DNA of 64,000 nucleotides from Comamonas antarctica (GTDB taxonomy: Bacteria; Pseudomonadota; Gammaproteobacteria; Burkholderiales; Burkholderiaceae_C), in contig NZ_CP054840.1 of the NCBI RefSeq assembly GCF_013363755.1, positions 2,287,501 to 2,351,500 of the forward strand, read 5' to 3'. The first letter of the stretch is position 1, and every line of letters begins with the position of its first letter. Under the pieces are notes generated by a model. It was not told the DNA's origin. It did not search any database and saw only the letters and a list, made by a program, of their open reading frames with translations. Made by a program: the position numbers and the translations under genes. This document shows positions 15,907-34,747 of this stretch, piece by piece.

Positions 15907-18066
15907 TCAAAACCCGCTTTCTCGAATCACCACGGCCAAGCCGTTTTGCAGCACATGCCCCAGCCAACTGCTGCGCTCCGCGCTGATGTGCACCGTGCCG
16001 CGAAGTTCTCGCACCTGGGGAAGCGCTTCGCGCAGCTGCAGGCGCACCCGATACAAGGCCTGCGCCGGCAGTGCCTGTTTTTCATGCGGCTGCGTTGCCA
16101 CCGCACCGCCATGGCGCGCGTCCAGCATGGCGTAGGGCAGTTGCTGGCTGCGTGCGCTGTCGACTTCCACGACCACCGCATCGACCGAAGTACCCCAGCG
16201 TTGCGGCCAGAAGCTGGCGTTGGCGCCGACCAGGATGCGCCCCACCTGCTGCTGGTCGACATAGGCATCGACGATCCAGCTGCTGGGGTCGACGAGAATG
16301 CCCAGCGGCGTACGCGCATTGACCCACGCCCCGGCCCGCAAGTGCTGATCCACATCGGTCCATTGCCCGGCGAATTCGGCTTTCAGTTGCAGTCGCGCTG
16401 CTTCGCCATCGATCGCGCGCGACTCGGCGAGTTGTTCCTGCAGACGCTGCACCATCGCCGGCTGCAGGTCCAGCCCCTGCGCCTGGCCCATCAGCTGCGG
16501 CAATTGCCGCGAAATGGTATTCACGCTGGCCTGGGTCCGGTCATGCCGGGCTTGCAGATCAGGCATTTCCAGCTGAACCAGCAAATCCCCTTCGCGCACC
16601 GCACCGGGCGCCTGCATGACCCGCACGCGCGCGGGCTGGGAACTGTAGACCGCCTGCTGGCGTTCAGCGCGGGCGACGCCTGGCGCCTTCAGATCGGCCG
16701 ACCAGGGAAAGGCCATCAAGGCCAGCACTCCCGCCGCAAAACCCCATACCAGGGCGCGCTTGGAGACAGGCACTTCAGGCCAGCGTTTTTTCCAGACCAT
16801 GATCTCCGTCCATACAGGTTTAGCCACAAACCACCACAGCTCCACGGCAAGCAGGAAAATGCCCAATGCCTTGAAGAAGAAGTAGTACACCGCAAAGGCG
16901 ATGCCAAGAAACACCGTCAGCCGATACAGCCAGGTGACATAGGCAAACAGGCGCAGCTTCCAGCGCACTTGCGGGCGGAACGGCTCCGGATCCGGGTCGT
17001 TCAGGCCCAGCAGCTTGCGGCGCATGAAGGCCTTGGCCATCGCCCCTGCCCGTTCGTGCAGATTCGGGAAATCCAGCACATCCGACAAAATGAAATAGCC
17101 GTCGAAGCGCATGAAGGGACTGACGTTGAGCGCGAGCGACAAAATCCATCCGGTTGTGGCCAGATAAAGCATGGACTGGCGCAATATGCCGTCGTCCAGC
17201 AATGCCCAGGCCAACGTGGCCAGCCCCGCCAGTGCCAGTTCGGTGGCAACGCCGGCAATCGAGATCGCCAGTCGCTGCCTGTGGCTTCGCAGCCGCCACG
17301 ATTCGCTGGTATCGGTGTAGAGCATGGGCCACAGCACGACGAAGGCCATGCCCATATGCGCCACCCGCACCCCAAGCCGTGTCGCCACCAGAGCGTGGCC
17401 CATCTCGTGCAGCGTTTTGGAGACGATCAGCGCAAGCGCGAAACCTGCCAGTCCCGCGGGCGAGAGCATATCCATGAAGCTGTGGACGAAGGTATCCCAC
17501 TGGCGCGCCACAAGCATCAGGCCCAGGGCCGAGGCCCCCAGCAACAGCCACAACGCCGTCCAGGTGAACAATGGCGCCACCCATGGCGACGTCGCCTCGA
17601 GCAGGCGCTGGGGCCGCACCAATGGAACCCGCACGAACAAGTAGGTGTGCAGCCACCATTTGGCGCTTTTCCATTTGACCGCGCTGCTTTTCTTCTGCAG
17701 CTGCGCCACCTTGCGTGGCGTGGCGCGCAGCAGGTTGTGCTGGTCCAGGAACTGGGCGAATTCCAGCACCTGCTCCTCATCGACTTCGAGCGTGGTGCTT
17801 GAACTGATGTCCCGGGCCACCTGCGCCGGCGGCAGATTCCAGCGCAGCAGGCACTCGTACTCCAGCCAGCCGATGCGATAGAAACGATTCGTGATCGGGT
17901 CTTGTATCACCCAGGCCGGCGCGCCGTCGGCGTAGGGCGCGGACTCCATCAGTTTGAGGTCGTCGCGCAGTTGCGCAGCGACGGGAGACGGGGCTTGCCG
18001 CGAGGCGCTGTCCTGCGGCGGGGAGGACGGCGCGGGTGCGGGCGCAGCCACCGGTCCGGCCGCCAT
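15907..18066 (-). CDS. M50-family metalloprotease fused to a HlyD-like domain (peptide zinc metalloprotease type)
   Basis: A 719-residue inner-membrane protein. Residues about 30-115 form a cytoplasmic PqqD-like region (APAWVIQDPITNRFYRIGWLE). Several helices follow, with the zinc motif HEMGH at 220-224 and the third-ligand region NVSPFMRFDGY around Asp322, so the protease site looks intact. From about 430 a helix leads into a periplasmic biotinyl-lipoyl/HlyD-like part with a coiled coil (VNTISRQLPQLMGQAQGLDLQP). It belongs to the putative peptide zinc metalloprotease group. The start ATG (18066-18064) overlaps the upstream stop as TAATG, showing translational coupling to the HlyD gene. It is the last gene of the adhesin locus and may process or help export the giant adhesin (inference). 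Confidence 0.88.
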   Translation of the reverse strand: MAAGPVAAPAPAPSSPPQDSASRQAPSPVAAQLRDDLKLMESAPYADGAPAWVIQDPITNRFYRIGWLEYECLLRWNLPPAQVARDISSSTTLEVDEEQVLEFAQFLDQHNLLRATPRKVAQLQKKSSAVKWKSAKWWLHTYLFVRVPLVRPQRLLEATSPWVAPLFTWTALWLLLGASALGLMLVARQWDTFVHSFMDMLSPAGLAGFALALIVSKTLHEMGHALVATRLGVRVAHMGMAFVVLWPMLYTDTSESWRLRSHRQRLAISIAGVATELALAGLATLAWALLDDGILRQSMLYLATTGWILSLALNVSPFMRFDGYFILSDVLDFPNLHERAGAMAKAFMRRKLLGLNDPDPEPFRPQVRWKLRLFAYVTWLYRLTVFLGIAFAVYYFFFKALGIFLLAVELWWFVAKPVWTEIMVWKKRWPEVPVSKRALVWGFAAGVLALMAFPWSADLKAPGVARAERQQAVYSSQPARVRVMQAPGAVREGDLLVQLEMPDLQARHDRTQASVNTISRQLPQLMGQAQGLDLQPAMVQRLQEQLAESRAIDGEAARLQLKAEFAGQWTDVDQHLRAGAWVNARTPLGILVDPSSWIVDAYVDQQQVGRILVGANASFWPQRWGTSVDAVVVEVDSARSQQLPYAMLDARHGGAVATQPHEKQALPAQALYRVRLQLREALPQVRELRGTVHISAERSSWLGHVLQNGLAVVIRESGF

Positions 18067-19463: not shown

Positions 19464-19617
19464 AATCGCAATGCCTGAAGATTGAACGTTGGATGCTCTG
19501 CTTTTGGCGCAAGGCGCGAGCCCTTGAGGCGCGCCTTGCACAGAGCAAATATTGAAAGCCAAGCGCCTGCACCGCCAGTTCAACCAGCGATGGCAGCGAA
19601 TTCACTCCAGCCCGGGT

Positions 19618-20445
19618 CTACTGCAGCGCCGGGAAACGCGCCACGCCACTCATGCCTGCCAGCAACTCAGGGTGCTGGCCGCCGATGCGCGCCTCGAGTT
19701 CGACCGTCTGCGCCACCGCATCCACGCGCGCATTGATGGCCGTCACCTGTGCGGGATAGGTCTTGCGCGTCTCATCGATGATCACCTCGAAGGCTGTGCC
19801 GGTCTTGAGGGCATAAAGCCAACGCGACGGCACGTTCAGGCGCAGTTTCAACGGGCCGTCGCTCACCATCTCGAGCAAAGGCACACCGACGTTGACGCCC
19901 TGCGCGGGCTTCACGTGCAGCTTGACTACATGGCCCGAGAACGGCGCCTTGACGACGCACTGCCCGGTTTGCACCTGGGTCAGGCCGATGGCGGCCTTGG
20001 CCTTGTCCGCCAGGGTCTTGGCGAGCAGCACTTCCGTATCGCCGGCGGCATCGAGCTTGCGCAGGCGCTCCTTGACGTCAAACGACTCCTTGGCATTCGC
20101 ATATTCGGCCTGTGCCATCCGCAGACGCGCATCGGCCTCGCTGCAGTCGAAACTCAGGAGCACGCGCCCCTTCGCCACGCGCGTGCCAAGGCCCACGTTG
20201 ACATTGGCGACGCGCCCCAGCATCTGGGACGCGAGCAGGGTCTCCAGCTCGGGCGTGAGCAACACGCGGATCGCATGCGGATCGGCCGCCACCGCGGCCG
20301 CGGGCGCCGCTGCCATGGCGGGCCGGGGCACGGCAGGCAGCGTGTTCTGGGCCAGCCCCGCAGCGCTCCACCAGAGCATGCAGCAGCCCGCAACCAGGCG
20401 CGGGACGTCGCGCATTTGCATGGAGCTTGTATCGATCAATTTCAC
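19618..20445 (-). CDS. Periplasmic adaptor subunit (RND/MFP type)
   Basis: About 275 residues of a membrane-fusion (RND-type adaptor) protein with a signal peptide (VPRLVAGCCMLWWSAAGLAQ). The first lipoyl half-motif region is VANVNVGLGTRVAKGRVLLSFDCSEADARL, then a hairpin (AQAEYANAKESFDVKERLRKLD), then the return strand CVVKAPFSGHVVKLHVKPAQGVNVG and a beta-barrel part (LKLRLNVPSRWLYALKTG). The proposed start is GTG 20445-20443, which overlaps the TolC stop codon as GTGA with AGGTGG upstream; the ATG at 20421 is an alternative. It bridges the outer-membrane channel and the inner-membrane parts of the adhesin export locus. Confidence 0.87.
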   Translation of the reverse strand: MKLIDTSSMQMRDVPRLVAGCCMLWWSAAGLAQNTLPAVPRPAMAAAPAAAVAADPHAIRVLLTPELETLLASQMLGRVANVNVGLGTRVAKGRVLLSFDCSEADARLRMAQAEYANAKESFDVKERLRKLDAAGDTEVLLAKTLADKAKAAIGLTQVQTGQCVVKAPFSGHVVKLHVKPAQGVNVGVPLLEMVSDGPLKLRLNVPSRWLYALKTGTAFEVIIDETRKTYPAQVTAINARVDAVAQTVELEARIGGQHPELLAGMSGVARFPALQ

Positions 20446-21953
20446 TTCGCCACCTGGAATACCGTTTGCTGCCACTGGGTCGTCGTGCTCTTCATTGCCT
20501 GCGCCAGGGTCTTGACGTCATGCGCCTGCACCGTGTCCGGCAGGATATCCAATCCGACGGAGTTGTAGAGGCGGCCCCAGGCGGCCTGGGCATTGGAATA
20601 GGCAGCATAACGCTGGTACTCGCCCAGCAGCGCGCGGGCTTCGGTGCGGATGACCTCGAGCTCCGAATCGAAATGGCTCTTGGCGGCCGACTGCGCGTAC
20701 TTGAGCAGACGCTGGTCCACTTGCAGGCTGGTCTCGGCGAACTTGAGTTCCTGCAGCGACAGGCCATAGCGCTGCACACCCACGCGGACCTGCGTCAGCA
20801 CCGCCATCGACAGAGCCAGGCGCCGCATGTCGTCGGTCTCGTTCTGCGCCTGCTGCGCACGGCCCAGCGCCGGATACTGTGCCAGCTTGAGCAGGTTCCA
20901 GGACACGCGCACACCGGTGTCGACCCAGTTGCTGTTGTAGTTGTACTTGTTGCTGTCGTACTGCCATCCCGCGTCGAAGCTGACATTCGGCCACAGCAGG
21001 ATCTTCGCCGCCTTGATGTCGTTCTCGGTCACGCGCTTGCGGTACCACTCTTCCATGATCTCGGGGCGCTTTTCCAATGCCAGGCGCTCGAGTGCTTCCA
21101 TGTTGACAGGTGGCAGGGGCAGTTGCACCTCCGCTTGTTCCGCCAGGGTGAAGTTCACGCCAGGCTCCAGCGACATCAGTGCGCGCAGTTCGGCGCGGGC
21201 CAATTCGAGGTCCTGGCGGCGCAGCGTCAGCGTGTTCACGGCGTCGAGCAACGCGCGCTGATAGCCGAGGATTTGCGCCTGGGGCATCAAGCCCTGCTTC
21301 TCCACCTCGACGGAGCGCTCCAGGGCCTTGTTCACACGCTCGAGCAGCCCATCCACACGGCCGAGCAACTTCTGCGCGCCCAGCGCGCGCCAGTAGCTGT
21401 TGCGTACATCCTGCAGCACGTTCTGGATCACCTTGCGGCGACGTTCGTCCGCCATCAGGACCTGGTCGGCCTTTTGCTGCGCGCGCAGGTACGACACACC
21501 GAAATCAAGCGCATTCCAGGAGAACGACAGGTTCGCCATCGAATGGTCACGCTCCTGCGATGTGGAGGGGCGCAGGGACACCTGGCGGTCTTCGATGCCG
21601 ATCGAAGTGCCGCCGGAATCGTTGTTGCGGCTCGAATAGCCGGCGCCTGCCACCAGGCGCGGCAGCATTTCATAGGTCGAGGCGTCATAGAGGCTGCGGC
21701 TCAGCGCCGTCTCCATCACCTTGAGCCGGTAGTCGAGGTTGTATTTGAGGGCGCGCGCGGCAGCTTCATGGAAGTCGATGGGCGCGGTGACTGGCTCCTG
21801 GTCTTTGTACATGGCGACCACGTCCTGGGCAGCGCGGCTGCGCACCTCCTCGGACGTGAAGGCCTTGGGCGCGACGGAGCCGCAGGCGGCAAGCAGCAAA
21901 GGCAGGGAGGCGACGGTGATGCGCAGGGCAAACGGAGAAATACGACGGGTCAT
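20442..21953 (-). CDS. TolC-family outer-membrane channel lipoprotein
   Basis: A 503-residue outer-membrane factor of the TolC/OEP family. It has a lipoprotein signal peptide with lipobox LAAC, giving lipidated Cys24. Two long helical repeats are visible: residues near 70-220 (AAARALKYNLDYRLKVMETALSRSLYDAS, then VLQDVRNSYWRALGAQKLL) and near 290-460 (KRPEIMEEWYRKRVTENDIKAAKILLWPNVSFDAGW, then SMAVLTQVRVGVQRYGLS). It should form the outer-membrane tunnel for the giant adhesin or another cargo. It is 125 bases after the adhesin gene and overlaps the adaptor by four bases. The start is ATG 21953-21951. Confidence 0.92.
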   Translation of the reverse strand: MTRRISPFALRITVASLPLLLAACGSVAPKAFTSEEVRSRAAQDVVAMYKDQEPVTAPIDFHEAAARALKYNLDYRLKVMETALSRSLYDASTYEMLPRLVAGAGYSSRNNDSGGTSIGIEDRQVSLRPSTSQERDHSMANLSFSWNALDFGVSYLRAQQKADQVLMADERRRKVIQNVLQDVRNSYWRALGAQKLLGRVDGLLERVNKALERSVEVEKQGLMPQAQILGYQRALLDAVNTLTLRRQDLELARAELRALMSLEPGVNFTLAEQAEVQLPLPPVNMEALERLALEKRPEIMEEWYRKRVTENDIKAAKILLWPNVSFDAGWQYDSNKYNYNSNWVDTGVRVSWNLLKLAQYPALGRAQQAQNETDDMRRLALSMAVLTQVRVGVQRYGLSLQELKFAETSLQVDQRLLKYAQSAAKSHFDSELEVIRTEARALLGEYQRYAAYSNAQAAWGRLYNSVGLDILPDTVQAHDVKTLAQAMKSTTTQWQQTVFQVAK

Positions 21954-22078
21954 GGAGTGAAACGCACTTGAATTGAAACTGTCATTGAATAAGTTGTCGG
22001 GTACTGGATGCACCCTGCCCGTGCCCGCCAACCCGCGCCGCATCGGCGCTCGGGGGTTGGGCGGTCACGGGGCCGAGA

Positions 22079-25000
22079 TCATCCGGTCACCTTTCGGCCT
22101 GGCAACTGGTGGGCCCGGGCATTGAGCTGCTGGCGGAAGGAGCCGTTGCTCGGCAGGCGTTGGTGTTCCCCCTGTGCCTCCTTGCCGCGTTGCGCCTCTC
22201 CCAGCGCCGCAATCTCCAGCAACCGCTGATTTGCATCTGCCAGGGTCTGCGCTGGCGTCTCGGCTTCGGCTGGCGAGGCCCCGAGCAGTGCCATTGGCGC
22301 ATCGACCGCATCCAGGGACGCGGGCATTCCAGGGCGTGTCGTGGCATCGGCCCGAACGCCTTGCATGTCTGCTGGCGACTTTCCAAGCAGGTTCTGCACG
22401 AGGCGGTTCCAGAATTCGCCCATCTGCTGCGAATCCTGCACGGCACGGCCCACGTAGATCACGTTGGCAGGGTTGGTCAGCAGGCCTGCGCCGATCGACG
22501 ACGCCTGCATTTCGCCCGTATGGGTGATTCCGGGATCATTGCCCAGCACTTCGCGATCGGCCTGCTCGGCCTGGCTGGTCGCGACCGCAGGGGCAACAAA
22601 CACCGCGGGGTGCAGCGGCGCGTCCATGCGTGCGACCCGGTTGAAGTCGTCCCAGTAGAAGAACACTCCTGGCATGCCGCTCACATCGTTGCTGCCCGCG
22701 CCCAGGTTCGCGCCCGGCGATGCTGCGTCCGGACGGCTCCCGTCCTGCGGCGGCGTCGCGCCAGGCTGGCTCGAGTTGACCGGCGGACGGATATCGACCG
22801 TGACCACCGCGGTCGTTGTGCCGCCACGGCCGTCGTCCACCGACACCACGAAGCTATCCGTTCCCGATGCGCCTTGGGCAGGGACGTAGACAAATTCGCC
22901 AGTCTGCTCATTGAGGATCACAGAGCCCTTGGCCGGCGCCTGCGCCACCGCATAGCCCAGCGGATCGCCATCGGCGTCGGAGCCTGCCAGCTGGCCAGCG
23001 ACGGGAACCCCTTCGTCCGCCGTCATTTGCGCCGGCGGCAGCGCCGGTCGGGCATTGACATCCACCGTGACGGTGGTCGTGGCCTTTGCGCCCTGGCCAT
23101 CGTCGACCGTCACCTCGAACGCGTCGGGTCCGTGGTATCCCGGCCGGGGAACGTAGATGAAGGAGCCATCGGGCGCGATGGTGACCGTGCCGTGGTCCGG
23201 GCCCTTGGGGCCGGCGCCAAAGCTCAGCGCATCGCCGTCCACATCGGATCCCGTCACCTTGCCGCCGACCGGGGTCCCGTCATTGGTCTTCACTGCCAGG
23301 GGATCCGCCTGCGGCGCATCATTCACCGGCGTGACCATCACGGTGACCGTGGCGGTGGTCCTGCCGCCCTGGCCATCGTCGACCGTCACCTCGAAGCGGT
23401 CGGTGCCGTTGAAGTCCTGGTTCGGCGTATAGGTGTAGGAGCCGTCGGCGCGAACCACCACGCTGCCGTTGCCGGGATCGCTGCCCTTGGAATAGGTCAG
23501 AGCGTCACCATCCACATCGCTGCCCACGACGCGGCCCGACAAGGGCGTGTCTTCCGGTGTGGTCTCGCTTTGGTCAGGCGCCACAGGCACATCATTCACC
23601 GGCGTGACTTGCACCGTGATGGTGGCCGTGACCTTGCCGCCCCTGCCATCGTCCACCGTCACCTCGAAGGTGTCGGCGCCGTGATAGTTCGCATCCGGTG
23701 TATAGGTGTACGCATTGGTGCCGGGCGTGAGCACCACCGTGCCATGGGATGGCGGCGTGGTGAGCGAATACTCCAGGGTATCGCCATCGGGGTCGATCGC
23801 GGGAACCAGGCCAGACACCGACGTGTCCTCGGGCGTCGTCACGGACAGCGAGGGAGGCACTTCGGGACTGCGATTGTCGATGTCCGGTGGGACATGCCCA
23901 ACCTGGCCGGCTTCGGGATTCGTGACCAGCGGACTGTAGGGGTCGCGCGGATCGATAGGCACCCAGATGCTGCCCTGGCCATCGTCGTTGATGGTGGCAT
24001 TGCCGGTTGCCGATGCCTGGCCGCCCACGACCTGCACTTGCAAGGCGAAGTCCTCGATGATCTCGGTGAGCGCATCGTTGACGATGGGCGTGCGCACCAG
24101 CAGCTTGCCGTCGGCACCCGTGATTTGCACTGAGATGCCGTTGTAGTCAGCCCAGGTTGCGCCTCCATCGAGCGAGTACTGCAGGTTGTGGCTGTCCGTG
24201 CTGCCGAAGTCGGTTCCCCCGCCGGTCGCCGTGCCATCCACCAGCTGCAGCGTCAGCTTCTGTCCCTGCGCGCCTTGCACGGCAAATACGGCGTGCGAGG
24301 ACGCTTCGTTGACATCGATGCTGTTGACGCTGACCGTGCGGTCGTCGTCGAACACCGGTGGCGTCACGCCCGGAAGCACCGGATCGGTCGAATTCACCGG
24401 CACCAGCGGTCCGTTCGGCAAAGCCGGATCGGCAGGCTGCCAGATCGTGCCCGTGCCATCGTCCTTGATGGTGGCCGTACCGCTTGCTGCGGTGCCGCCC
24501 GTATTGGTGGCCGTCAGCGTGAATTGCTCAGCGCCTTCGGTCACCCGGTCATTGACAATGGCCACGCGCACCTGCAGCTTGCCGCCTGCAGGAATCTCGA
24601 CCAGCTGGCCAGCGGTGTAGCTGCTCCAATGCGTGCCATCAAAGTATTCCAGCGTCGCGCCAAAGTCGACGCCACCGCCGGTGGCCGTGCCATCGGTCAG
24701 GGACAGCATCACCTTCTGGCCCGCCGCACCCGTGACTTCAAACACGCCATGGCCCGAAGCTTCATTGACATCGATGCTGTTGACGCTGACCGTGCGGTCG
24801 TCGTCAAACACCGGTGGCGTCACGCCCGGAAGCACCGGGTCGGTCGGGTTGACCGGAACCAGAGGTCCATTGGGCAAAGCCGGATCGGCCGGTTGCCAGA
24901 TCGTGCCCGTGCCATCGTCCTTGATGGTGGCCGTACCGCTTGCGCCCGTGCCGCCCGTATTGGTGGCCGTCAGCGTGAATTGCTCGTCGCCCTCGGTCAC

Positions 25001-28000
25001 CCGGTCATTGACGATGGCCACGCGCACCTGCAGCTTGCCGCCCACGGGAATCTCGACCAGCTGGCCCGCCGTGTAGCTGGTCCATTGCGTGCCATCAAAG
25101 TATTCAAGGGTGGTGCCATAGTCGGCGCCGCCCCTGGCCGTGCCATCGATCAGTGCGAGCGTGAGCTTCTGGCCCGCTGCGCCGCTGACTTCAAACACGC
25201 CATGGCCCGAAGCTTCGTTGACATCGATGCTGTTGACGCTGACCGTACGGTCGTCGTCAAACACCGGTGGCGTCACGCCCGGAAGCACCGGGTCGGTCGG
25301 GTTGACGGGAACCAGAGGTCCGTTTGGCACCGCCGGATCGGCAGGCTGCCAGATCGTGCCCGTGCCATCGTCCTTGATGGTCGCCGTACCGCTTGCGCCC
25401 GTGCCGCCCGTGTTGGTGGCCGTCAGCGTGAATTGCTCGGTGCCTTCGACCACCGTGTCATTGACGATGGCCACGCGCACCTGCAGCTTGCCGCCTGCGG
25501 GAATCTCGACCAGCTGGCCCGCCGTGTAGCTGGTCCATTGCGTACCATTGAAGTATTCAAGGGTGGTGCCATAGTCGGCGCCACCCGTGGCCGTACCGTC
25601 GGTCAGTGCCAGCGTGAGCTTCTGGCCCGCCGCACCTGTGACTTCAAACACGCCATGGCCCGACGCTTCGTTGACATCGATGCTGTTGACGCTGACCGTA
25701 CGGTCGTCGTCAAACACCGGTGGCGTCACGCCCGGAAGCACCGGGTCGGTCGGGTTGACCGGAACCAGAGGTCCGTTCGGCAAAGCCGGATCGGCAGGCT
25801 GCCAGATCGTGCCCGTGCCATCGTCCTTGATGGTGGCCGTACCGCTTGCTGCGGTGCCGCCGGTATTGGTGGCCGTCAGCGTGAATTGCTCGGCGCCTTC
25901 GGCCACGGTGTCATTGACGATGGCTACGCGCACCTGCAGCTTGCCGCCCGCGGGAATCTCAACCAGCGCACCGGCCGTATAGCTGTTCCATTGCGTGCCA
26001 TCAAAGTATTCCAGCGCCGCGCCAAAGTCCACGCCGCCGCCCGTGGCGGTGCCATCGGTCAGTGCCAGCGTGAGCTTCTGGCCCGCCGCACCCGTGACTT
26101 CAAACACGCCATGGCCCGATGCTTCATTGACATCGATGCTGTTGACGCCGACCGTGCGGTCATCGTCAAACACCGGTGGCGTCACGCCCGGAAGCACTGG
26201 ATCTGTAGGGCCGACCGGAACCAGTAGTCCGTTTGGCACCGCCGGATCGGCCGGTTGCCAGATCGTGCCCGTGCCATCATCCTTGATGGTGGCCGTACCG
26301 CTTGTGCCCGTGCCGCCCGTATTGGTGGCCGTCAGCGTGAATTGCTCGGCGCCTTCGACCACGGTGTCATTGACGATGGCCACGCGCACCTGCAGCTTGC
26401 CGCCTGCGGGAATCTCGACCAGCTGGCCTGCCGTGTAGCTGGTCCATTGCGTACCATTGAAGTATTCCAGCGCCGCGCCAAAGTCGACGCCGCCGCCCGT
26501 GGCGGTGCCATCGGTCAGTGCGAGCGTGAGCTTCTGGCCGGCCGCACCCGTGACTTCAAACACGCCATGGCCCGAAGCTTCGTTGACATCGATGCTATTG
26601 ACGCCGACCGTGCGGTCGTCGTCAAACACCGGTGGCTTCACGCCCGGAAGCACCGGGTCGGTCGGGTTGACCGGAACCAGAGGTCCATTGGGCAAAGCCG
26701 GATCGGCAGGCTGCCAGATCGTGCCCGTGCCGTCGTCCTTGATGGTGGCCGTACCGCTTGCGCCCGTGCCGCCCGTGTTGGTGGCCGTCAGCGTGAATTG
26801 CTCGGTGCCTTCGACCACCGTGTCATTGACGATGGCCACGCGCACCTGCAGCTTGCCGCCTGCGGGAATCTCGACCAGCTGGCCTGCCGTATAGCTGTTC
26901 CATTGCGTGCCATCAAAGTATTCCAGCGCCGCGCCAAAGTCCACGCCACCGCCGGTGGCCGTGCCATCGGTCAGTGCGAGCGTGAGCTTCTGGCCGGCCG
27001 CACCCGTGACTTCAAACACGCCATGGCCCGAAGCTTCGTTGACATCGATGCTATTGACGCCGACCGTGCGGTCGTCGTCAAACACCGGTGGCGTCACGCC
27101 AGGCGTAACTGGGTCGGTCGGATTCACCGGAACCAGTGGTCCGTTCGGCAAAGCCGGATCGGCCGGCTGCCAGATCGTGCCCGTGCCATCGTCCTTGATG
27201 GTGGCCGTGCCGCTCGCTGCGGTGCCGCCGGCATTGGTGGCCGTCAGCGTGAATTGCTCGGCGCCTTCGGTCACCCGGTCATTGACAATGGCCACGCGCA
27301 CCTGCAGCTTGCCGCCTGCGGGAATCTCAACCAGCTGGCCCGCCGTGTAGCTGGTCCATTGCGTACCATTGAAGTATTCAAGGGTGGTGCCATAGTCGGC
27401 GCCGCCCGTGGCCGTGCCATCGGTCAGTGCCAGCGTGAGCTTCTGGCCCGCCGCACCCGTGACTTCAAACACGCCATGGCCCGAAGCTTCGTTGACATCG
27501 ATGCTATTGACGCCGACCGTGCGGTCATCGTCAAACACCGGTGGCTTCACGCCCGGAAGCACCGGGTCGGTCGGGTTGACCGGCACCAGCGGTCCGTTCG
27601 GCAAAGCCGGATCGGCAGGCTGCCAGATCGTGCCCGTGCCATCGTCCTTGATGGTGGCCGTACCGCTTGCTGCGGTGCCGCCCGTATTGGTGGCCGTCAG
27701 CGTGAATTGCTCAGCGCCTTCGGTCACCCGGTCATTGACAATGGCCACGCGCACCTGCAGCTTGCCGCCTGCAGGAATCTCGACCAGCTGGCCAGCGGTG
27801 TAGCTGCTCCAATGCGTGCCATCAAAGTATTCCAGCGTCGCGCCAAAGTCGACGCCACCGCCGGTGGCCGTGCCATCGGTCAGGGACAGCATCACCTTCT
27901 GGCCCGCCGCACCCGTGACTTCAAACACGCCATGGCCCGAAGCTTCATTGACATCGATGCTGTTGACGCTGACCGTGCGGTCGTCGTCAAACACCGGTGG

Positions 28001-31000
28001 CGTCACGCCCGGAAGCACCGGGTCGGTCGGGTTGACCGGAACCAGAGGTCCATTGGGCAAAGCCGGATCGGCCGGTTGCCAGATCGTGCCCGTGCCATCG
28101 TCCTTGATGGTGGCCGTACCGCTTGCGCCCGTGCCGCCCGTATTGGTGGCCGTCAGCGTGAATTGCTCGTCGCCCTCGGTCACCCGGTCATTGACGATGG
28201 CCACGCGCACCTGCAGCTTGCCGCCCACGGGAATCTCGACCAGCTGGCCCGCCGTGTAGCTGGTCCATTGCGTGCCATCAAAGTATTCAAGGGTGGTGCC
28301 ATAGTCGGCGCCGCCCCTGGCCGTGCCATCGATCAGTGCGAGCGTGAGCTTCTGGCCCGCTGCGCCGCTGACTTCAAACACGCCATGGCCCGAAGCTTCG
28401 TTGACATCGATGCTGTTGACGCTGACCGTACGGTCGTCGTCAAACACCGGTGGCGTCACGCCCGGAAGCACCGGGTCGGTCGGGTTGACGGGAACCAGAG
28501 GTCCGTTTGGCACCGCCGGATCGGCAGGCTGCCAGATCGTGCCCGTGCCATCGTCCTTGATGGTCGCCGTACCGCTTGCGCCCGTGCCGCCCGTGTTGGT
28601 GGCCGTCAGCGTGAATTGCTCGGTGCCTTCGACCACCGTGTCATTGACGATGGCCACGCGCACCTGCAGCTTGCCGCCTGCGGGAATCTCGACCAGCTGG
28701 CCCGCCGTGTAGCTGGTCCATTGCGTACCATTGAAGTATTCAAGGGTGGTGCCATAGTCGGCGCCACCCGTGGCCGTACCGTCGGTCAGTGCCAGCGTGA
28801 GCTTCTGGCCCGCCGCACCTGTGACTTCAAACACGCCATGGCCCGACGCTTCGTTGACATCGATGCTGTTGACGCTGACCGTACGGTCGTCGTCAAACAC
28901 CGGTGGCGTCACGCCCGGAAGCACCGGGTCGGTCGGGTTGACCGGAACCAGAGGTCCGTTCGGCAAAGCCGGATCGGCAGGCTGCCAGATCGTGCCCGTG
29001 CCATCGTCCTTGATGGTGGCCGTACCGCTTGCTGCGGTGCCGCCGGTATTGGTGGCCGTCAGCGTGAATTGCTCGGCGCCTTCGGCCACGGTGTCATTGA
29101 CGATGGCTACGCGCACCTGCAGCTTGCCGCCCGCGGGAATCTCAACCAGCGCACCGGCCGTATAGCTGTTCCATTGCGTGCCATCAAAGTATTCCAGCGC
29201 CGCGCCAAAGTCCACGCCGCCGCCCGTGGCGGTGCCATCGGTCAGTGCCAGCGTGAGCTTCTGGCCCGCCGCACCCGTGACTTCAAACACGCCATGGCCC
29301 GATGCTTCATTGACATCGATGCTGTTGACGCCGACCGTGCGGTCATCGTCAAACACCGGTGGCGTCACGCCCGGAAGCACTGGATCTGTAGGGCCGACCG
29401 GAACCAGTAGTCCGTTTGGCACCGCCGGATCGGCCGGTTGCCAGATCGTGCCCGTGCCATCATCCTTGATGGTGGCCGTACCGCTTGCGCCCGTGCCGCC
29501 CGTATTGGTGGCCGTCAGCGTGAATTGCTCGGCGCCTTCGGTCACCCGGTCATTGACAATGGCCACGCGCACCTGCAGCTTGCCGCCCGCGGGAATCTCT
29601 ACCAGCGCACCGGCTGTATAGCTGCTCCAATACGTGCCATCAAAGTATTCAAGCGCCGCACCAAAGTCCACGCCGCCGCCCGTGGCCGTGCCATCGGTCA
29701 GTGCGAGCGTCACCTTCTGGCCGGCCGCACCCGTGACTTCAAACACGCCATGGCCCGAAGCTTCGTTGACATCGATGCTGCTGACGCTGACCGCACGGTC
29801 ATCGTCGAACACCGGTGGCGTCACGCCAGGCGTGACTGGATCGGTCGGGTTGACCGGTACCAGCGGTCCGTTCGGCAAAGCCGGATCGGCCGGCTGCCAG
29901 CGGGTGCCCGTGCCATCGTCCTTGATGGTGGCCGTGCCGGTGCCGGTGTTGTCGCCAATGATCTCATTTGCGCCATAAACGGGCGTAACGATCAAAGCAA
30001 AGGTTTCTCCGTTATCGGCAATGTCGTCGTTGACGATGGCCACTCGAACGAGCAGCTTGCCGCTGGGATCGACCGGCACCGCCTCACCGGTCGTATATGC
30101 GCTCCAGCCGGTGCCGTTCCAGTATTGCAGGCCTGATCCTGCCGATTGGCCGTAGTCAACGCCTTGGCCCGTGGCCGCATCGCTGCCCACGGCATCGGGC
30201 AATGCCAGTTGGACGCTGGTGCCTGGCAGAGCCTGCACATCGAATACCGCATATCCCGAGCCTTCGTTCACCACCGGGCTGCTGACAAGGACGGGCTTGA
30301 TCGCCACGGTGCCGCTGCCCAGGTCGCTGACGTTGCCCGCCGCGTCCTTGACGCTGGCGTTGATCGTGTACGTGTTGCCTTTCACCATCGCCACGCCATC
30401 CGGCAAGCGCAGGCTCCAGGTATTGTTGTCGCGCTTGAGATAGGTATCGCCCAGAGCCTCGCCTTCCGTGAAGCTATAGGTGATGCCGCCGATGACGATG
30501 GAGACCGTCAACACTTCGCCATCGCGCACCTCTCCCTTGCCAGTGATCACCGGCGTGGTGTCATGGGTGATCTGATCCAACACCCCGGGTGCGTCGGGCG
30601 GGGTCAGGTCGATGACCAGCTCGTTGGTGGTCAGGTCCTTGACGGGAGAGCCGCCATGGGGCGTGACGGACACCTCGACGGGATATTTGCCTTCGGGCAT
30701 CTCGTCAGCCGATGGAATCTGCAGGGTCCAGGTGTGCTCATCGGCCTTGTATTGCAGCGGGCTGGAACCATTGTCCTGGCCCTCGTGCCACACATAAGTC
30801 TTGCCATTGACCTCGACCGTGAGCGTACCGTCCACCGGCACATTCGCCTCGCCGGTGATGACAGGCGTGGTGTCGTTGGTGGTTTTCCGGTCCACCGTGG
30901 GCACGTCGGGACCATTCGTGCCATTGCCGCCAATGACGTTCACCGTTGCCGTTGCAGGGGTGGCGGTGGCTCCTGCCTTGTCGGTGGCCGTGAAAGCAAA

Positions 31001-34000
31001 GCTGCGGCCGCCATTGGTAGCGGACACGCCGGCGTCGTTGCGGTACGAGATATCGCGCACGAGGGCCTGGGCCTGCGCGGCAGTGATTTCCCCGGGCAGG
31101 TTGGCCCCCCCATTCACCCCCACGGGCGTCAGCGTGAACTTGCCGGCCGCATAGGTGACCACCACCTCGACGCCGCCCACCGTGATCGCGCCCGAAGGCA
31201 GATCGCTGCCGTTGGCTTTCAGCGCGGTACCGCCAAAAACCAGTGTTTCATGGTCGCCATCGCGCAGGCCGCTGACGGCTATATCGATGCGCGTCACGCG
31301 GTTGGAGTTCTCCTGCACCGTCGCTTCATGCACTGGCGAAGTATCGTTGTCCAGGCTGACAGTGGTGGAACTGCCAGCGGTGAACTGCGCCGTGTGATCG
31401 CGCGTGACATCGCTGCCCGCATCCAGATCGATCAGCGGAGCGGTGTTGTCGATCTGGAAGCTGATGCTGCCGCCTTGGGCGAGGTCATTGCCTGCATCGT
31501 CCACGATGCTCGCAGTGCCCGGACGGGTCGGATCATTGGGTCCGTTCTTGAGGATCAGCTCGTAGTCACCCGTGGGATTGGTGACCTTGCCCAGATCGAT
31601 GTACCAGATAGCCGGGTCATTGGAGTCCTGTCTGATCGGCGTATCCGCAGGCAACGCGACCGGAGTGCCGTCGCGCACGAGGATGAAGTCTCCGACATCG
31701 ACGTTTTGAACGGCCTCGTTGAACGTCACCTTGATCTCGCCAACAGGCGTATACCGCGGCCCGGTGTTGCCGTCGACCACCTCCAGCTGGCTGACCTGGG
31801 GCGGCGCATGATCCGGTCCCTGCACCATGATGGCGTAGTCTTCGACCTCGCCGTCCATGCGGGCGCCGTAGGACCGTGGATCCCGGCCGTCCACGTTGGT
31901 GACGGCTCCGGCGTAACTGTCGCTCCAGCGGTCTTGCGTGGCGCCCAGCGTCTGCGTCTCGGACGTGATGCGGAAACGCGCATAGGTAGCCACACCATCG
32001 GCGAGCTGCAGTCCTGCGCCCCCCGGAATGTTCCAGGTCACCGTCACCGTGCCGTTTTTCGTCCCGGCCGGGACGATATAGGTCACTGCCTCTTCGACGC
32101 CGAACTTCCCATCGCCGTTGAAATCCAGCCAGGCAATCAGCTTGGCATCCTTGCCGCTATCGTTGTTGACGGCAACATCCACCGAGTAAGAGCTTGCTTC
32201 CTGGCGCAGCGCAGGAAAGATCTTCACGCCGTCGTCGTCGCTCACGCCACTGCTGTTGGTATCGCTGTCGGCGCCCGCCGAAGGCGTGCCGGTCATCTCA
32301 TAGCCGTCGGGCTTCTGGCCCAGCGAAACCTTGTTTCCAAGCTGGTTGTGACGAGGGCCCTGCGCATCCAGGCTGGTCTTGTAGCTGTCGGGTGCGTCGC
32401 CGAAATCCAGGTTGATGGTGACGATGCGTCCCGCGTCGCCGGAGCTCGGCAGCGTGCGCGAGGGGTCGGCGTCGATCCGATCGAGCTGATTGGTCGCCAC
32501 ATTGATGCGGCCCAGCTGCGTGGTGCTGATGTTGAAGTAGAAATACCCGTTGTTGTCGAAATACTGCATTGCGGCGCTGGTGACGCCGTTGATGGTGGTC
32601 GACGTGGCCGTGACGCCGGTCGGCTTGCCTTCGGCATCGCGTGCGACGACGATCTTGCGCAATGCGTCGGTGGCGGCCGAATACAAGTCGCCCTGCGCAT
32701 TGAACGCCATGTCGCTGCCGGGTGCATTCGAAGCGATGCTGATCGGTGCAAGCCACTGCTGGAAGGTGTTCGACTGCGGATTCAGGTCCAGCAGATAGAA
32801 CTTGTTTGACGAGTACAGCCACATGATGCCGTGGTTGTCGATGTCTGCCGTGACCACCGAGGCATTCGATGGCGGCGCATTGGTGCCGCCATACTGGCTG
32901 GACACCCGGGTGACCGTGCCGTCCGCATCGATTCTGACAACGAACTTGTTCGTATTGTCCGAAGCATAGAGATGGCCGTCGATGGAATTGAAGCCCAGGC
33001 CGTTCAAGCTCAAGCTGGAGAAATCGTTGAAATTTCCTCCGCCAATCTTGGCAACCGTCTCCAGCGTGCCCATGACCAGGTTCACGCCGACCAGGTCCTG
33101 GCCACTGCCACCGGTATTGGGAACCGCACCGACCAGGTAGGCCGTGGTGCTGTCGTCGATGGAGAAAGCCGCGCCCAGCACGCGCATCTCGCGCGTCGCC
33201 GCAACGGAAGAGGTCTGGCCATCATTGACGCTGACGCTGATGCTGCGCGACTGGTTTACGCCCCCTGCCGTATGGAAAGTGATCTGCCCCAGCGCCATCT
33301 GGTAGGCGGCCAGACTGGCATGGCCGCTCAGCGTGAGCGTGCCGGTACTGCTGTTGAATGCTGCCTCTATTCCCTTGGGCAGGCTGCCTTTGATCGCCAG
33401 CACGTCGCTGGCACTGCGGTTGGCGCCGATCTGGATCGTCGCACTCTCCAGGAAGGTATCGTCCGAGTCGCTCAAGACGAAGTTGCCGTTGAACAGCACC
33501 TTGGCACCGTCGCCCATGCTGAACCACTGGTGCTTGGATGGCAGCGCATCGAACACCGGCCTTTGGTTGTTGCTGTTGGTTTGGTTCAGCAAATCCAGGC
33601 TATCGAAAGCTGCGACCTGGTTGCCGACGACGTCGCGCAGCGCGGTGCCATGGTAGCCCACCTTCACGCTCTGACCTGCGATGGCTGCGGCCGACAGCGT
33701 GAGCCTCACGCTCTGGCCGTCGACGACGACGCGGTTGACCGTCACCGCAGCCCCGTTGATGGAAACGACGAAGTCGCCAGCGCCAGGGACCTGCCCCGCA
33801 TCCAGCGCATGCAGGTCGTTGAACTCCAGGGTCACGACGATGTCGCTGACTGCGCTGGCCGCACTGACTTGCGGCGGCATGTTGTCGATCACCAGGACAG
33901 CACTGCCCACCGCAGTGTTGCCGGCGGCGTCGCTGCTGCGGATCACCAGGCTGTGCGCGCCTTCGGCCAACGCCGCTCCCGTGTAGGTCAAGCCCCAACT

Positions 34001-34747
34001 GCCGCTGCCATCGGCCTTGGCGGTGCCCAGCAGCGTGCTGCCGATGTACAAGCGCACCGTATCGCCGGCGTCGGCCTTGCCGCTGAACTGCAGGCCGCTG
34101 GTCTGGTTGGTGGCGATCCGGGCGCCGTCAATACTGCCTCCGCTCAAGCCGCTCACATAGGCCGCGGTGATCACGCCATCGATCGTGTAGCTGTCGTCGC
34201 GCTTGCCATCGGCAGGATTCGTCTCTGTCACCGGGCGCGAATTGCCGTCCCGGCTGGTGATGCCGGAGTTCGCGGCCAGATCGATGTTGAGTGTGCCGGT
34301 CGCTCCCTGCAGGCCGCTGACCGTCACATCGTATTGCGTGCCGTTCAGATCCACCTGCGATACGAGCTGGATGGTCGCGCCACTTACCGACCCGGCAGCG
34401 ATGACGAAAGAGTTCCCGCTGACGCCCTGCACTCCCTCGCTGAAGGTGACCCGAAAAGTGACGCTGTCGGCGTTGGTCGTCTCGAAGCTCGGACTCTGCC
34501 GCACGATGCCCTCGACGGTGGGATCGGAGCTGGCGCCCATGAGCGCCGCGAAACCCATGAATGGCGTGCTGTCCGCTGCATTGCCATCAGGCGCATTCCC
34601 CGTGTTCCTGTCAGCGTCCGTATCCTGATGGGCGTCATCCCGCGTGGCATCTGCGATCGCCACGGCGCCAGCGCCGTCGAATAACAACCGGGGTTCCAGG
34701 GCCAGAACCCGACTGTTGGACCGAAGACGTGATTTCTTGTGTGACAT
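22079..34747 (-). CDS. Giant LEPR-type Calx-beta/cadherin-repeat surface adhesin
   Basis: A 4222-residue surface protein. After a basic N terminus, residues 17-26 read LEPRLLFDGA, the LEPR-XLL hallmark of very large exported proteins; no Sec signal peptide is seen. In order (approximate): Ig-like folds 70-400, a cadherin-like segment 400-525, a propeller-like region 530-775, a GEVED domain 775-975, further Ig-like domains to 1490, 14 Calx-beta units 1490-3605 of which 12 are nearly identical, four cadherin-like units with PDGDTLEYS/DVDGDALTY calcium motifs 3625-3990, and a non-repetitive C terminus. No RTX nonapeptides were found. The ATG at 34747-34745 begins the basic leader. It probably mediates calcium-dependent adhesion or biofilm formation, exported by the four genes downstream. 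Confidence 0.92.
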   Translation of the reverse strand: MSHKKSRLRSNSRVLALEPRLLFDGAGAVAIADATRDDAHQDTDADRNTGNAPDGNAADSTPFMGFAALMGASSDPTVEGIVRQSPSFETTNADSVTFRVTFSEGVQGVSGNSFVIAAGSVSGATIQLVSQVDLNGTQYDVTVSGLQGATGTLNIDLAANSGITSRDGNSRPVTETNPADGKRDDSYTIDGVITAAYVSGLSGGSIDGARIATNQTSGLQFSGKADAGDTVRLYIGSTLLGTAKADGSGSWGLTYTGAALAEGAHSLVIRSSDAAGNTAVGSAVLVIDNMPPQVSAASAVSDIVVTLEFNDLHALDAGQVPGAGDFVVSINGAAVTVNRVVVDGQSVRLTLSAAAIAGQSVKVGYHGTALRDVVGNQVAAFDSLDLLNQTNSNNQRPVFDALPSKHQWFSMGDGAKVLFNGNFVLSDSDDTFLESATIQIGANRSASDVLAIKGSLPKGIEAAFNSSTGTLTLSGHASLAAYQMALGQITFHTAGGVNQSRSISVSVNDGQTSSVAATREMRVLGAAFSIDDSTTAYLVGAVPNTGGSGQDLVGVNLVMGTLETVAKIGGGNFNDFSSLSLNGLGFNSIDGHLYASDNTNKFVVRIDADGTVTRVSSQYGGTNAPPSNASVVTADIDNHGIMWLYSSNKFYLLDLNPQSNTFQQWLAPISIASNAPGSDMAFNAQGDLYSAATDALRKIVVARDAEGKPTGVTATSTTINGVTSAAMQYFDNNGYFYFNISTTQLGRINVATNQLDRIDADPSRTLPSSGDAGRIVTINLDFGDAPDSYKTSLDAQGPRHNQLGNKVSLGQKPDGYEMTGTPSAGADSDTNSSGVSDDDGVKIFPALRQEASSYSVDVAVNNDSGKDAKLIAWLDFNGDGKFGVEEAVTYIVPAGTKNGTVTVTWNIPGGAGLQLADGVATYARFRITSETQTLGATQDRWSDSYAGAVTNVDGRDPRSYGARMDGEVEDYAIMVQGPDHAPPQVSQLEVVDGNTGPRYTPVGEIKVTFNEAVQNVDVGDFILVRDGTPVALPADTPIRQDSNDPAIWYIDLGKVTNPTGDYELILKNGPNDPTRPGTASIVDDAGNDLAQGGSISFQIDNTAPLIDLDAGSDVTRDHTAQFTAGSSTTVSLDNDTSPVHEATVQENSNRVTRIDIAVSGLRDGDHETLVFGGTALKANGSDLPSGAITVGGVEVVVTYAAGKFTLTPVGVNGGANLPGEITAAQAQALVRDISYRNDAGVSATNGGRSFAFTATDKAGATATPATATVNVIGGNGTNGPDVPTVDRKTTNDTTPVITGEANVPVDGTLTVEVNGKTYVWHEGQDNGSSPLQYKADEHTWTLQIPSADEMPEGKYPVEVSVTPHGGSPVKDLTTNELVIDLTPPDAPGVLDQITHDTTPVITGKGEVRDGEVLTVSIVIGGITYSFTEGEALGDTYLKRDNNTWSLRLPDGVAMVKGNTYTINASVKDAAGNVSDLGSGTVAIKPVLVSSPVVNEGSGYAVFDVQALPGTSVQLALPDAVGSDAATGQGVDYGQSAGSGLQYWNGTGWSAYTTGEAVPVDPSGKLLVRVAIVNDDIADNGETFALIVTPVYGANEIIGDNTGTGTATIKDDGTGTRWQPADPALPNGPLVPVNPTDPVTPGVTPPVFDDDRAVSVSSIDVNEASGHGVFEVTGAAGQKVTLALTDGTATGGGVDFGAALEYFDGTYWSSYTAGALVEIPAGGKLQVRVAIVNDRVTEGAEQFTLTATNTGGTGASGTATIKDDGTGTIWQPADPAVPNGLLVPVGPTDPVLPGVTPPVFDDDRTVGVNSIDVNEASGHGVFEVTGAAGQKLTLALTDGTATGGGVDFGAALEYFDGTQWNSYTAGALVEIPAGGKLQVRVAIVNDTVAEGAEQFTLTATNTGGTAASGTATIKDDGTGTIWQPADPALPNGPLVPVNPTDPVLPGVTPPVFDDDRTVSVNSIDVNEASGHGVFEVTGAAGQKLTLALTDGTATGGADYGTTLEYFNGTQWTSYTAGQLVEIPAGGKLQVRVAIVNDTVVEGTEQFTLTATNTGGTGASGTATIKDDGTGTIWQPADPAVPNGPLVPVNPTDPVLPGVTPPVFDDDRTVSVNSIDVNEASGHGVFEVSGAAGQKLTLALIDGTARGGADYGTTLEYFDGTQWTSYTAGQLVEIPVGGKLQVRVAIVNDRVTEGDEQFTLTATNTGGTGASGTATIKDDGTGTIWQPADPALPNGPLVPVNPTDPVLPGVTPPVFDDDRTVSVNSIDVNEASGHGVFEVTGAAGQKVMLSLTDGTATGGGVDFGATLEYFDGTHWSSYTAGQLVEIPAGGKLQVRVAIVNDRVTEGAEQFTLTATNTGGTAASGTATIKDDGTGTIWQPADPALPNGPLVPVNPTDPVLPGVKPPVFDDDRTVGVNSIDVNEASGHGVFEVTGAAGQKLTLALTDGTATGGADYGTTLEYFNGTQWTSYTAGQLVEIPAGGKLQVRVAIVNDRVTEGAEQFTLTATNAGGTAASGTATIKDDGTGTIWQPADPALPNGPLVPVNPTDPVTPGVTPPVFDDDRTVGVNSIDVNEASGHGVFEVTGAAGQKLTLALTDGTATGGGVDFGAALEYFDGTQWNSYTAGQLVEIPAGGKLQVRVAIVNDTVVEGTEQFTLTATNTGGTGASGTATIKDDGTGTIWQPADPALPNGPLVPVNPTDPVLPGVKPPVFDDDRTVGVNSIDVNEASGHGVFEVTGAAGQKLTLALTDGTATGGGVDFGAALEYFNGTQWTSYTAGQLVEIPAGGKLQVRVAIVNDTVVEGAEQFTLTATNTGGTGTSGTATIKDDGTGTIWQPADPAVPNGLLVPVGPTDPVLPGVTPPVFDDDRTVGVNSIDVNEASGHGVFEVTGAAGQKLTLALTDGTATGGGVDFGAALEYFDGTQWNSYTAGALVEIPAGGKLQVRVAIVNDTVAEGAEQFTLTATNTGGTAASGTATIKDDGTGTIWQPADPALPNGPLVPVNPTDPVLPGVTPPVFDDDRTVSVNSIDVNEASGHGVFEVTGAAGQKLTLALTDGTATGGADYGTTLEYFNGTQWTSYTAGQLVEIPAGGKLQVRVAIVNDTVVEGTEQFTLTATNTGGTGASGTATIKDDGTGTIWQPADPAVPNGPLVPVNPTDPVLPGVTPPVFDDDRTVSVNSIDVNEASGHGVFEVSGAAGQKLTLALIDGTARGGADYGTTLEYFDGTQWTSYTAGQLVEIPVGGKLQVRVAIVNDRVTEGDEQFTLTATNTGGTGASGTATIKDDGTGTIWQPADPALPNGPLVPVNPTDPVLPGVTPPVFDDDRTVSVNSIDVNEASGHGVFEVTGAAGQKVMLSLTDGTATGGGVDFGATLEYFDGTHWSSYTAGQLVEIPAGGKLQVRVAIVNDRVTEGAEQFTLTATNTGGTAASGTATIKDDGTGTIWQPADPALPNGPLVPVNSTDPVLPGVTPPVFDDDRTVSVNSIDVNEASSHAVFAVQGAQGQKLTLQLVDGTATGGGTDFGSTDSHNLQYSLDGGATWADYNGISVQITGADGKLLVRTPIVNDALTEIIEDFALQVQVVGGQASATGNATINDDGQGSIWVPIDPRDPYSPLVTNPEAGQVGHVPPDIDNRSPEVPPSLSVTTPEDTSVSGLVPAIDPDGDTLEYSLTTPPSHGTVVLTPGTNAYTYTPDANYHGADTFEVTVDDGRGGKVTATITVQVTPVNDVPVAPDQSETTPEDTPLSGRVVGSDVDGDALTYSKGSDPGNGSVVVRADGSYTYTPNQDFNGTDRFEVTVDDGQGGRTTATVTVMVTPVNDAPQADPLAVKTNDGTPVGGKVTGSDVDGDALSFGAGPKGPDHGTVTIAPDGSFIYVPRPGYHGPDAFEVTVDDGQGAKATTTVTVDVNARPALPPAQMTADEGVPVAGQLAGSDADGDPLGYAVAQAPAKGSVILNEQTGEFVYVPAQGASGTDSFVVSVDDGRGGTTTAVVTVDIRPPVNSSQPGATPPQDGSRPDAASPGANLGAGSNDVSGMPGVFFYWDDFNRVARMDAPLHPAVFVAPAVATSQAEQADREVLGNDPGITHTGEMQASSIGAGLLTNPANVIYVGRAVQDSQQMGEFWNRLVQNLLGKSPADMQGVRADATTRPGMPASLDAVDAPMALLGASPAEAETPAQTLADANQRLLEIAALGEAQRGKEAQGEHQRLPSNGSFRQQLNARAHQLPGRKVTG
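22780..23870 (-). repeat. Four tandem cadherin-like (tandem-95 type) units in the adhesin
   Basis: Four consecutive coding units of about 90 residues each. Each shows the pattern EDT/DGTPV...GSDVDGDAL...G.V...DGSYTYTP...G.D.FEVTVDDG.GG...TVTV. The DxDGD motifs are typical calcium ligands of this fold. The units are diverged, unlike the Calx-beta units next to them. Confidence 0.85.
24345..29803 (-). repeat. Twelve near-identical tandem Calx-beta units (453/456-bp period)
   Basis: The landmark GACATCGATGCT (coding for SIDVN on the other strand) recurs at 24311, 24767, 25220, 25673, 26129, 26585, 27041, 27494, 27950, 28403, 28856, 29312 and 29768, giving steps of 453 or 456 bases (151 or 152 codons). 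The one-codon difference is the choice between GGADYGTTLEYF and GGGVDFGAALEYF. Each unit holds VNEASGHGVFEV, VRVAIVNDxVxEGxEQFTLTATNTGG and TATIKDDGTGTIWQPADP, the Calx-beta core plus a proline-rich linker. Diverged units flank the array on both sides. Confidence 0.97.
24396..26304. repeat. About 1.9-kb higher-order duplication, copy A (copy B at 27579-29487)
   Basis: Four Calx-beta units here recur 3183 bases later (27579-29487) with no mismatch in the stretches I compared. Bounding differences are at 24395 (C, against G) and 26305 (T, against C at 29488). The shift equals seven units, so units 3-6 and 10-13 of the protein are the same block. Confidence 0.85.

Follow-up and report, generated by a model that had tools for sequence, protein, structure and literature searches.

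How does an adhesin of 4,222 amino acids leave the cell when the genes beside it encode a TolC-family protein, two adaptors and a membrane protease, and no ABC transporter? The locus that raises this question lies in a stretch of 64,000 nucleotides, the whole of which we call the window, and which is part of a 5.03-Mb genome (G000, 99.86% complete; C1 2287501-2351500).

Architecture of the locus

The initial annotation had described five minus-strand genes standing together, and all five were found at that place and on that strand, between positions 15907 and 34747 of the window. Their features are as follows.

22079..34747, minus strand: giant adhesin, 4,222 aa, without cysteine and without a hydrophobic signal-peptide-like segment
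34646..34708, minus strand: LEPR tag LALEPRLLFDGAG, FDGA subtype, at the adhesin N-terminus (NF012209 match)
24303..29939, minus strand: 12.4 tandem copies of a 456-base (152-aa) module, in the part of the adhesin with Calx-beta matches
22124..22138, minus strand: adhesin C-terminal box FRQQL, 19 residues before the end
20442..22043, minus strand: TolC-family outer-membrane protein (OEP) with a lipoprotein-like signal (OEP 129 bits, Pfam)
19618..20445, minus strand: periplasmic adaptor of the RND_mfp family, its GTG start overlapping the TolC stop
18066..19463, minus strand: adaptor of the HlyD type, in which an N-terminal domain precedes the single membrane helix
18912..19454, minus strand: GAF-fold domain, residues 4-184 of the HlyD protein (fold comparison)
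15907..18066, minus strand: RRE-M50-HlyD inner-membrane protein, 719 aa
17719..17982, minus strand: RRE-fold (leader-peptide-binding fold) domain, residues 29-116 of the M50 protein (fold comparison)
17395..17409, minus strand: M50 zinc site HExxH, residues 220-224
15958..16707, minus strand: HlyD-like periplasmic domain, residues 454-703 of the M50 protein

Pfam searches gave OEP in the TolC protein, HlyD_3/HlyD_D23 in the adaptors and Peptidase_M50 together with HlyD_3 in the M50 protein, so that HlyD_3, by which HlyD-family adaptors are recognized here, is present in three proteins of the cluster. Domains matched in the adhesin include Big_9, Calx-beta, cadherin-like and GEVED. The LEPR-8K model (cut-off 17) gave the adhesin a score of 16.9 when proteins were scanned and 23.4 bits, above the cut-off, when the genome was. 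The start codons in use are likely those at 34747 for the adhesin (MSHKKS..), 20445 for the adaptor (GTG), 19463 for the HlyD protein and 18066 for the M50 protein, the last of which gives 719 aa, the length of the identical listed protein P0006. Three tight junctions had been claimed for the block; two of them are present, GTGA between TolC and adaptor and TAATG between HlyD and M50, and the other two gaps measure 35 and 155 bases.

The block had also been described as free of any ABC component, which our searches bear out. None of the five proteins contains a Walker A pattern, and a profile built from 12 exporters of the same genome detected no ABC nucleotide-binding domain in the window frames of at least 60 aa at E<=10. 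The window frames upstream of the adhesin look by eye like a divergent Bug-type receptor and a hydrolase, and are joined by an MFS gene. A tRNA-like aragorn prediction with a four-base anticodon (window 45416-45506) lies inside protein-coding frames and is probably spurious.

Conservation of the four-gene unit

A scan of named genomes yielded at least 594 places encoding M50-HlyD relatives, and the best 80 of these were taken with flanks of up to 10 kb. A search for a shared gene order in many genomes had been recommended for this locus; among these best 80 of at least 594, the genes for TolC, adaptor, HlyD and M50 follow one order on one strand in 73. Six of the other seven lack the TolC match only, and one (L064) shows the M50 gene alone. 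Hosts among the 80 loci listed are Comamonas, Pseudomonas, Variovorax, Caballeronia, Aeromonas, Halomonas, Salinicola, Dyella, Azonexus, Azospira, Desulfopila and others. No further gene, among frames of 90-2,000 aa, is common to more than three of 28 diverse loci, the upstream side of the adhesin being covered where whole adhesin genes were fetched and the 10-kb flanks mostly ending inside the gene; in particular, the 28 loci share no RiPP modifying-enzyme gene and no RND or MFS pump gene. These results support the view of the block as a conserved unit that belongs with the adhesin.

Two variations on this arrangement were observed. In the Pseudomonas loci L052, L056 and L058 a frame of more than 3,300 aa is located downstream of M50 and the cluster shows no TolC match. 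The window genome itself contains a second, divergent adhesin-HlyD-M50 system (G000:C1:879000-909000; L156, L013), in which a TolC-like frame lies ahead of the adhesin.

Co-occurrence of the LEPR tag and the M50-HlyD protein

The 24-residue LEPR model of NCBI and an M50-HlyD profile were run on 250 genomes (the order sample). LEPR was found in 37 genomes and M50-HlyD in 50, with 35 genomes having the two together (odds ratio 231, p 2e-28). The 37 are genomes with the tag in open frames of 450 aa or more, seven of 44 with shorter frames only being left out; when the short frames are included, 36 of the 44 LEPR genomes carry M50-HlyD. The 50 remain from 54 M50 matches after removal of G049, G147, G239 and G273, in which the HlyD part only was matched, and one of them (G193) rests on a fragment. 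Fisher tests treat genomes as independent, which is softened by the repeat at genus level, where M50-HlyD is present in 22 of 24 LEPR genera as compared to 8 of 96 others. In a second set of 200 genomes (the phylum sample), M50-HlyD was detected in 43/43 LEPR genomes versus 33/157 others, and in 40/40 LEPR genomes after the eight genomes shared with the order sample had been set aside. We consider the LEPR-M50 pairing well supported. Among 14 control genomes, a LEPR match was found in Deinobacterium chartae.

The two genomes of the order sample with LEPR and no M50 match (G177 and G274) have weak LEPR matches (E 0.02-0.04), and with four to five M50/ABC candidates scored per genome some absences may be misses. 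Six genomes with M50-HlyD and no LEPR match were looked at: three (G048, G217, G098) have variant tags beside the system, in two (G140, G111) the contigs end too early to show a tag, and in G133 the M50 gene is present and the stretch read contains no tag. The second system of the window genome (M50 at C1:898486) lies downstream of an adhesin with LALEQRFMFDGAA, which is likewise not matched by the LEPR model. The tag may resemble a planctomycete N-terminal motif, and the LEPR/M50 pair may be analogous to the rhombosortase/exosortase systems.

Tag subtype follows the M50 clade

M50-HlyD proteins were divided by a gap in their profile scores, and not by a tree, into clade I (some 660 bits or more) and clade II (some 273 bits or less). 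In the phylum sample intermediate M50 scores occur between these ranges; the tag subtypes were read in the order sample. There, 94 LEPR matches were obtained, of which five, in frames of at most 300 aa, were left unread and 89 were read, eight of them being unreadable by pattern (the subtype tally has 90 rows, one unreadable tag having been fetched twice). The form LEPR..FDxA was found in 13/13 readable tags of genomes whose M50-HlyD proteins all belong to clade I. Where clade II alone is present, none of 50 tags has FDxA, 44 being LSxD and six of other forms, e.g. LAAD. The subtype therefore follows the clade in all 63 readable tags of single-clade genomes (p 1e-13 by hit, 7e-9 by genome), and three of the five genomes with both clades contain both tag subtypes. 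With four candidates scored per genome, the distance from tag to nearest M50 match reaches 678 kb in G253 and 648 kb in G085, values that may reflect missed M50 matches. Tags so far from the nearest M50 match suggest that linkage alone hardly explains the agreement of subtype, and the position of these LEPR genes fits with a tag that is read in trans.

Such a correspondence raises the possibility that the M50 system has a role in maturation or anchoring only, cleaving or anchoring LEPR proteins after their export by another route. Dedicated pairs of sorting signal and protease show motif-protease pairing across genomes, and the pairing seen here resembles them. LEPR genes outnumber M50 systems in, e.g., G065 and G135 (four M50 candidates scored per genome). 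The clade II loci point in the same direction, since a TolC profile had no match in 20/20 of them (L251-L270), even as all 20 contain an M50 frame and one of the HlyD type; the TolC component is accordingly established for clade I. In clade I clusters, on the other hand, the protease is accompanied by TolC and two more adaptors, which goes beyond the needs of cleavage, and we give this explanation only a slim chance.

Linked and unlinked ABC transporters

An ABC transporter in the system is the defining feature of type I secretion, and the cluster, having none, fails on this point. It had been considered that relatives might always carry a neighbouring ABC gene, and within the flanks covered they do not: an ABC ATPase frame occurs in 7 of the 80 loci (flanks of up to 10 kb), the nearest of them 2.7 kb past the M50 gene on the opposite strand, and in none of the 20 clade II loci.

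An ABC transporter encoded elsewhere might still drive the inner-membrane step, with the four genes as accessories for leader removal, retention or docking, so that the system would be type I secretion in disguise. The window genome does contain two LssB-type and four PrtD-type ABCs unlinked to the cluster, and a type I ABC gene over the cut-off is present in 20 of the 35 genomes with LEPR and M50, several of the other 15 having sub-threshold relatives. An adhesin without cysteine suits passage through TolC. As far as the excerpted part of PMC7730722 goes, adhesin and type I genes are unlinked in Legionella; the corresponding part of PMC10868602 describes a Vibrio LEPR protein of ~8,000 aa with C-terminal RTX and serralysin domains, which has the look of a type I substrate. 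Against this stands the loose tie between LEPR and the type I ABC families as compared to M50-HlyD, the odds ratios in the order sample being 1.5 for LssB (p 0.38), 2.4 for PrtD (p 0.037) and 4.3 for HlyB (p 0.002), the latter two weak and nominally significant. Moreover, a TolC protein and adaptors are already supplied by the cluster itself.

The most direct counter-evidence comes from a sister genome (G002), a single contig that is 100% complete and carries the same cluster with a LEPR adhesin, its M50 protein being 76% identical. Five of its ABC_membrane proteins were identified, as a cyanophycin-associated ABC, MsbA, two MsbA-like proteins and CydD, and the sixth is an unassigned frame of 394 aa; none of the six was assigned to type I secretion in a search that, outside the clusters, consisted of PF00664 and three type I models, MacB-type ABCs lying outside its genome-wide scope. 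A dedicated type I ABC thus seems not to be needed for the cluster to persist in this genome, and we regard type I secretion in disguise as unlikely.

Domains of the M50 and HlyD proteins

Fold comparison of the N-terminal domain of the M50 protein (residues 29-116) revealed a fold like that of leader-binding RiPP recognition elements (RREs), e.g. TbiB1 (6jx3), and the presumably cytoplasmic part of the HlyD protein has a GAF fold. A sequence-profile search of the two proteins gave no PqqD/RRE or GAF family match, and Pfam gave no PqqD match in 67 M50 members. The N-terminal domains of clade I and clade II aligned weakly with hhalign (probability 4%), and the RRE fold is established for clade I. 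It is this fold that suggests an RRE function for the domain. As the domain precedes the first membrane helix, it is probably cytoplasmic.

Judged from sequence, the M50 zinc-site motif is intact. HExxH and D322-G323 are invariant in 67/67 clade I M50 proteins; among the clade II proteins HExxH is found in 20/20 and the strict P..xFDG pattern in 5/20. Residues 73-434 of the longer M50 frame show a distant match to the daptide protease model NF041824 (164.6 bits against a cut-off of 300), and the adaptor parts align with MacA, EmrA and MexA. Among 7,999 proteins scored, 3,354 are related to the M50 protein at E<=0.001. Public records label such proteins as site-2 protease family protein or HlyD family adaptor, and the named proteins closest to that of the window are mostly from Comamonas.

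Signals in the adhesin

No 19-residue stretch of the 4,222-aa adhesin exceeds 1.5 on the hydropathy scale, and therefore no ordinary Sec signal peptide is visible. No TPS or autotransporter domain was detected in it either (Pfam, E<=0.01). These results bear on a further explanation, in which SecA/SecYEG would move the adhesin to the periplasm by way of its odd N-terminus and the four genes would serve the outer-membrane step only. SecA is universal and supplies ATP, and RND-type pumps that work with TolC collect their cargo from the periplasm, which makes such a division of labour conceivable. Apart from the missing hydrophobic segment, it is opposed by the absence of any RND or MFS inner-membrane pump from the five cluster proteins (Pfam) and by the probable cytoplasmic position of the RRE domain. 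We consider a Sec-first route quite unlikely.

At the other end of the adhesins, 67 C-termini directly upstream of TolC genes were read, and 61 of them have the pattern F..[QE][LMVI] in their last 60 residues, the six misses including four frames (L060, L074, L080, L082) that look like shadow or non-adhesin frames. The same pattern is present in 5% of other 60-residue blocks and in 3% of shuffles.

Proposed mechanism

Taking these results together, it seems slightly more probable than an even chance that the four genes form a dedicated machine for recognition, processing and export of giant proteins with a LEPR leader, without an ATPase of its own. The RRE domain of the RRE-M50-HlyD protein, on the expected cytoplasmic side of the membrane, would bind the LEPR leader as RREs bind RiPP leaders and present it to the intramembrane M50 centre, which would clip it. 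The membrane part of the M50 protein and the HlyD domain fused to it could then, together with GAF-HlyD, the periplasmic adaptor and the lipoprotein of the TolC family, form a conduit for the chain. A second signal, perhaps a late or anchoring one, may reside in the FxxQL box at the C-terminus. Either the proton motive force or the folding of repeat modules once they are outside might drive the passage.

Both elements of this proposal have precedents in the excerpted part of PMC10885120: complete proteolysis of the leader depends on an RRE in lasso-peptide pathways, and both cleavage and export of an epipeptide are believed to be the work of the M50 protease EpeP, although its deletion did not abolish production. 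The simplest reading, that of the dedicated machine, joins the role of the RRE in leader proteolysis with the precedent of EpeP. It is weakened by the unlinked type I ABCs, by the Vibrio protein with RTX and serralysin domains and by the clade II loci without TolC. We are aware of no M50 protease through which a polypeptide thousands of residues long passes, which also counts against it.

More tentatively, and short of calling it probable, we put forward the fuller proposal of an ATPase-less secretion in which the RRE would read the leader, the M50 membrane part would be both clipper and inner-membrane gate, the latter in line with the initial annotation, and adaptors and TolC would carry out export; LEPR and RRE-M50 would then constitute a sorting code with matched subtypes in Pseudomonadota and at least one further phylum.

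Relation to known systems

The cluster shares with type I secretion of the LapA/SiiE type a giant repetitive adhesin beside a TolC-family protein and HlyD-family adaptors, and differs in having no ABC transporter, an N-terminal LEPR tag and an M50 protease with RRE and HlyD parts. Tripartite pumps such as MacAB, EmrAB and MexAB have similar adaptor parts, but the cluster is without their ABC, MFS or RND pump. A membrane M50 protease is also found in the epipeptide and daptide pathways (EpeP; YydH/LiaK, NF058609; daptide, NF041824), the last being the model matched distantly. In contrast to these, the cluster M50 is fused to HlyD, carries the RRE in the same chain and scores below the 300-bit daptide cut-off; its presumed substrate is the 4,222-aa adhesin, and no modifying gene is common to its relatives. 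The combination of RRE and M50 recalls RiPP maturation in general, from which the cluster differs in the lack of nearby modifying enzymes. Lasso peptide RRE proteins (TbiB1, 6jx3) have the same fold as M50 residues 29-116, whereas in the cluster this fold is fused to a membrane protease and its proposed ligand is the N-terminus of an adhesin.

In the open-access literature we found no paper linking the LEPR tag with M50 or with this cluster; PMC10868602 and PMC9611531, in their excerpted parts, name LEPR-XLL once each, without a secretion machine. The LEPR tag is found on many giant proteins of surface type, for which the loci examined show no linked exporter of a known kind. If passage free of ABC is real, it would represent a new kind of protein secretion, and if no pump takes part, very long chains would cross two membranes without a dedicated ATPase, with leader recognition of the RiPP style reused for adhesins. 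If an unlinked ABC or Sec performs the inner-membrane step, the system would be a known form of export with a new sorting tag. Recognition and cleavage by themselves would still make a pair of sorting signal and protease, which could help to predict surface proteins in many genomes.

Further features of LEPR adhesins

To the eye, a run of 152-aa modules in the window adhesin (24303-29939) looks like a nearly exact internal duplication, which is suggestive of a recent expansion. DUF4347 (PF14252) was found soon after the tag in all four other LEPR adhesins scanned (L156, L155, L151, L150), and Pfam did not detect it in the window adhesin. The HG and C residues of DUF4347 look caspase-like by eye. 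In the phylum sample, open frames headed by a LEPR tag reach lengths of up to 19,427 codons (G343:C115, G289, G297).
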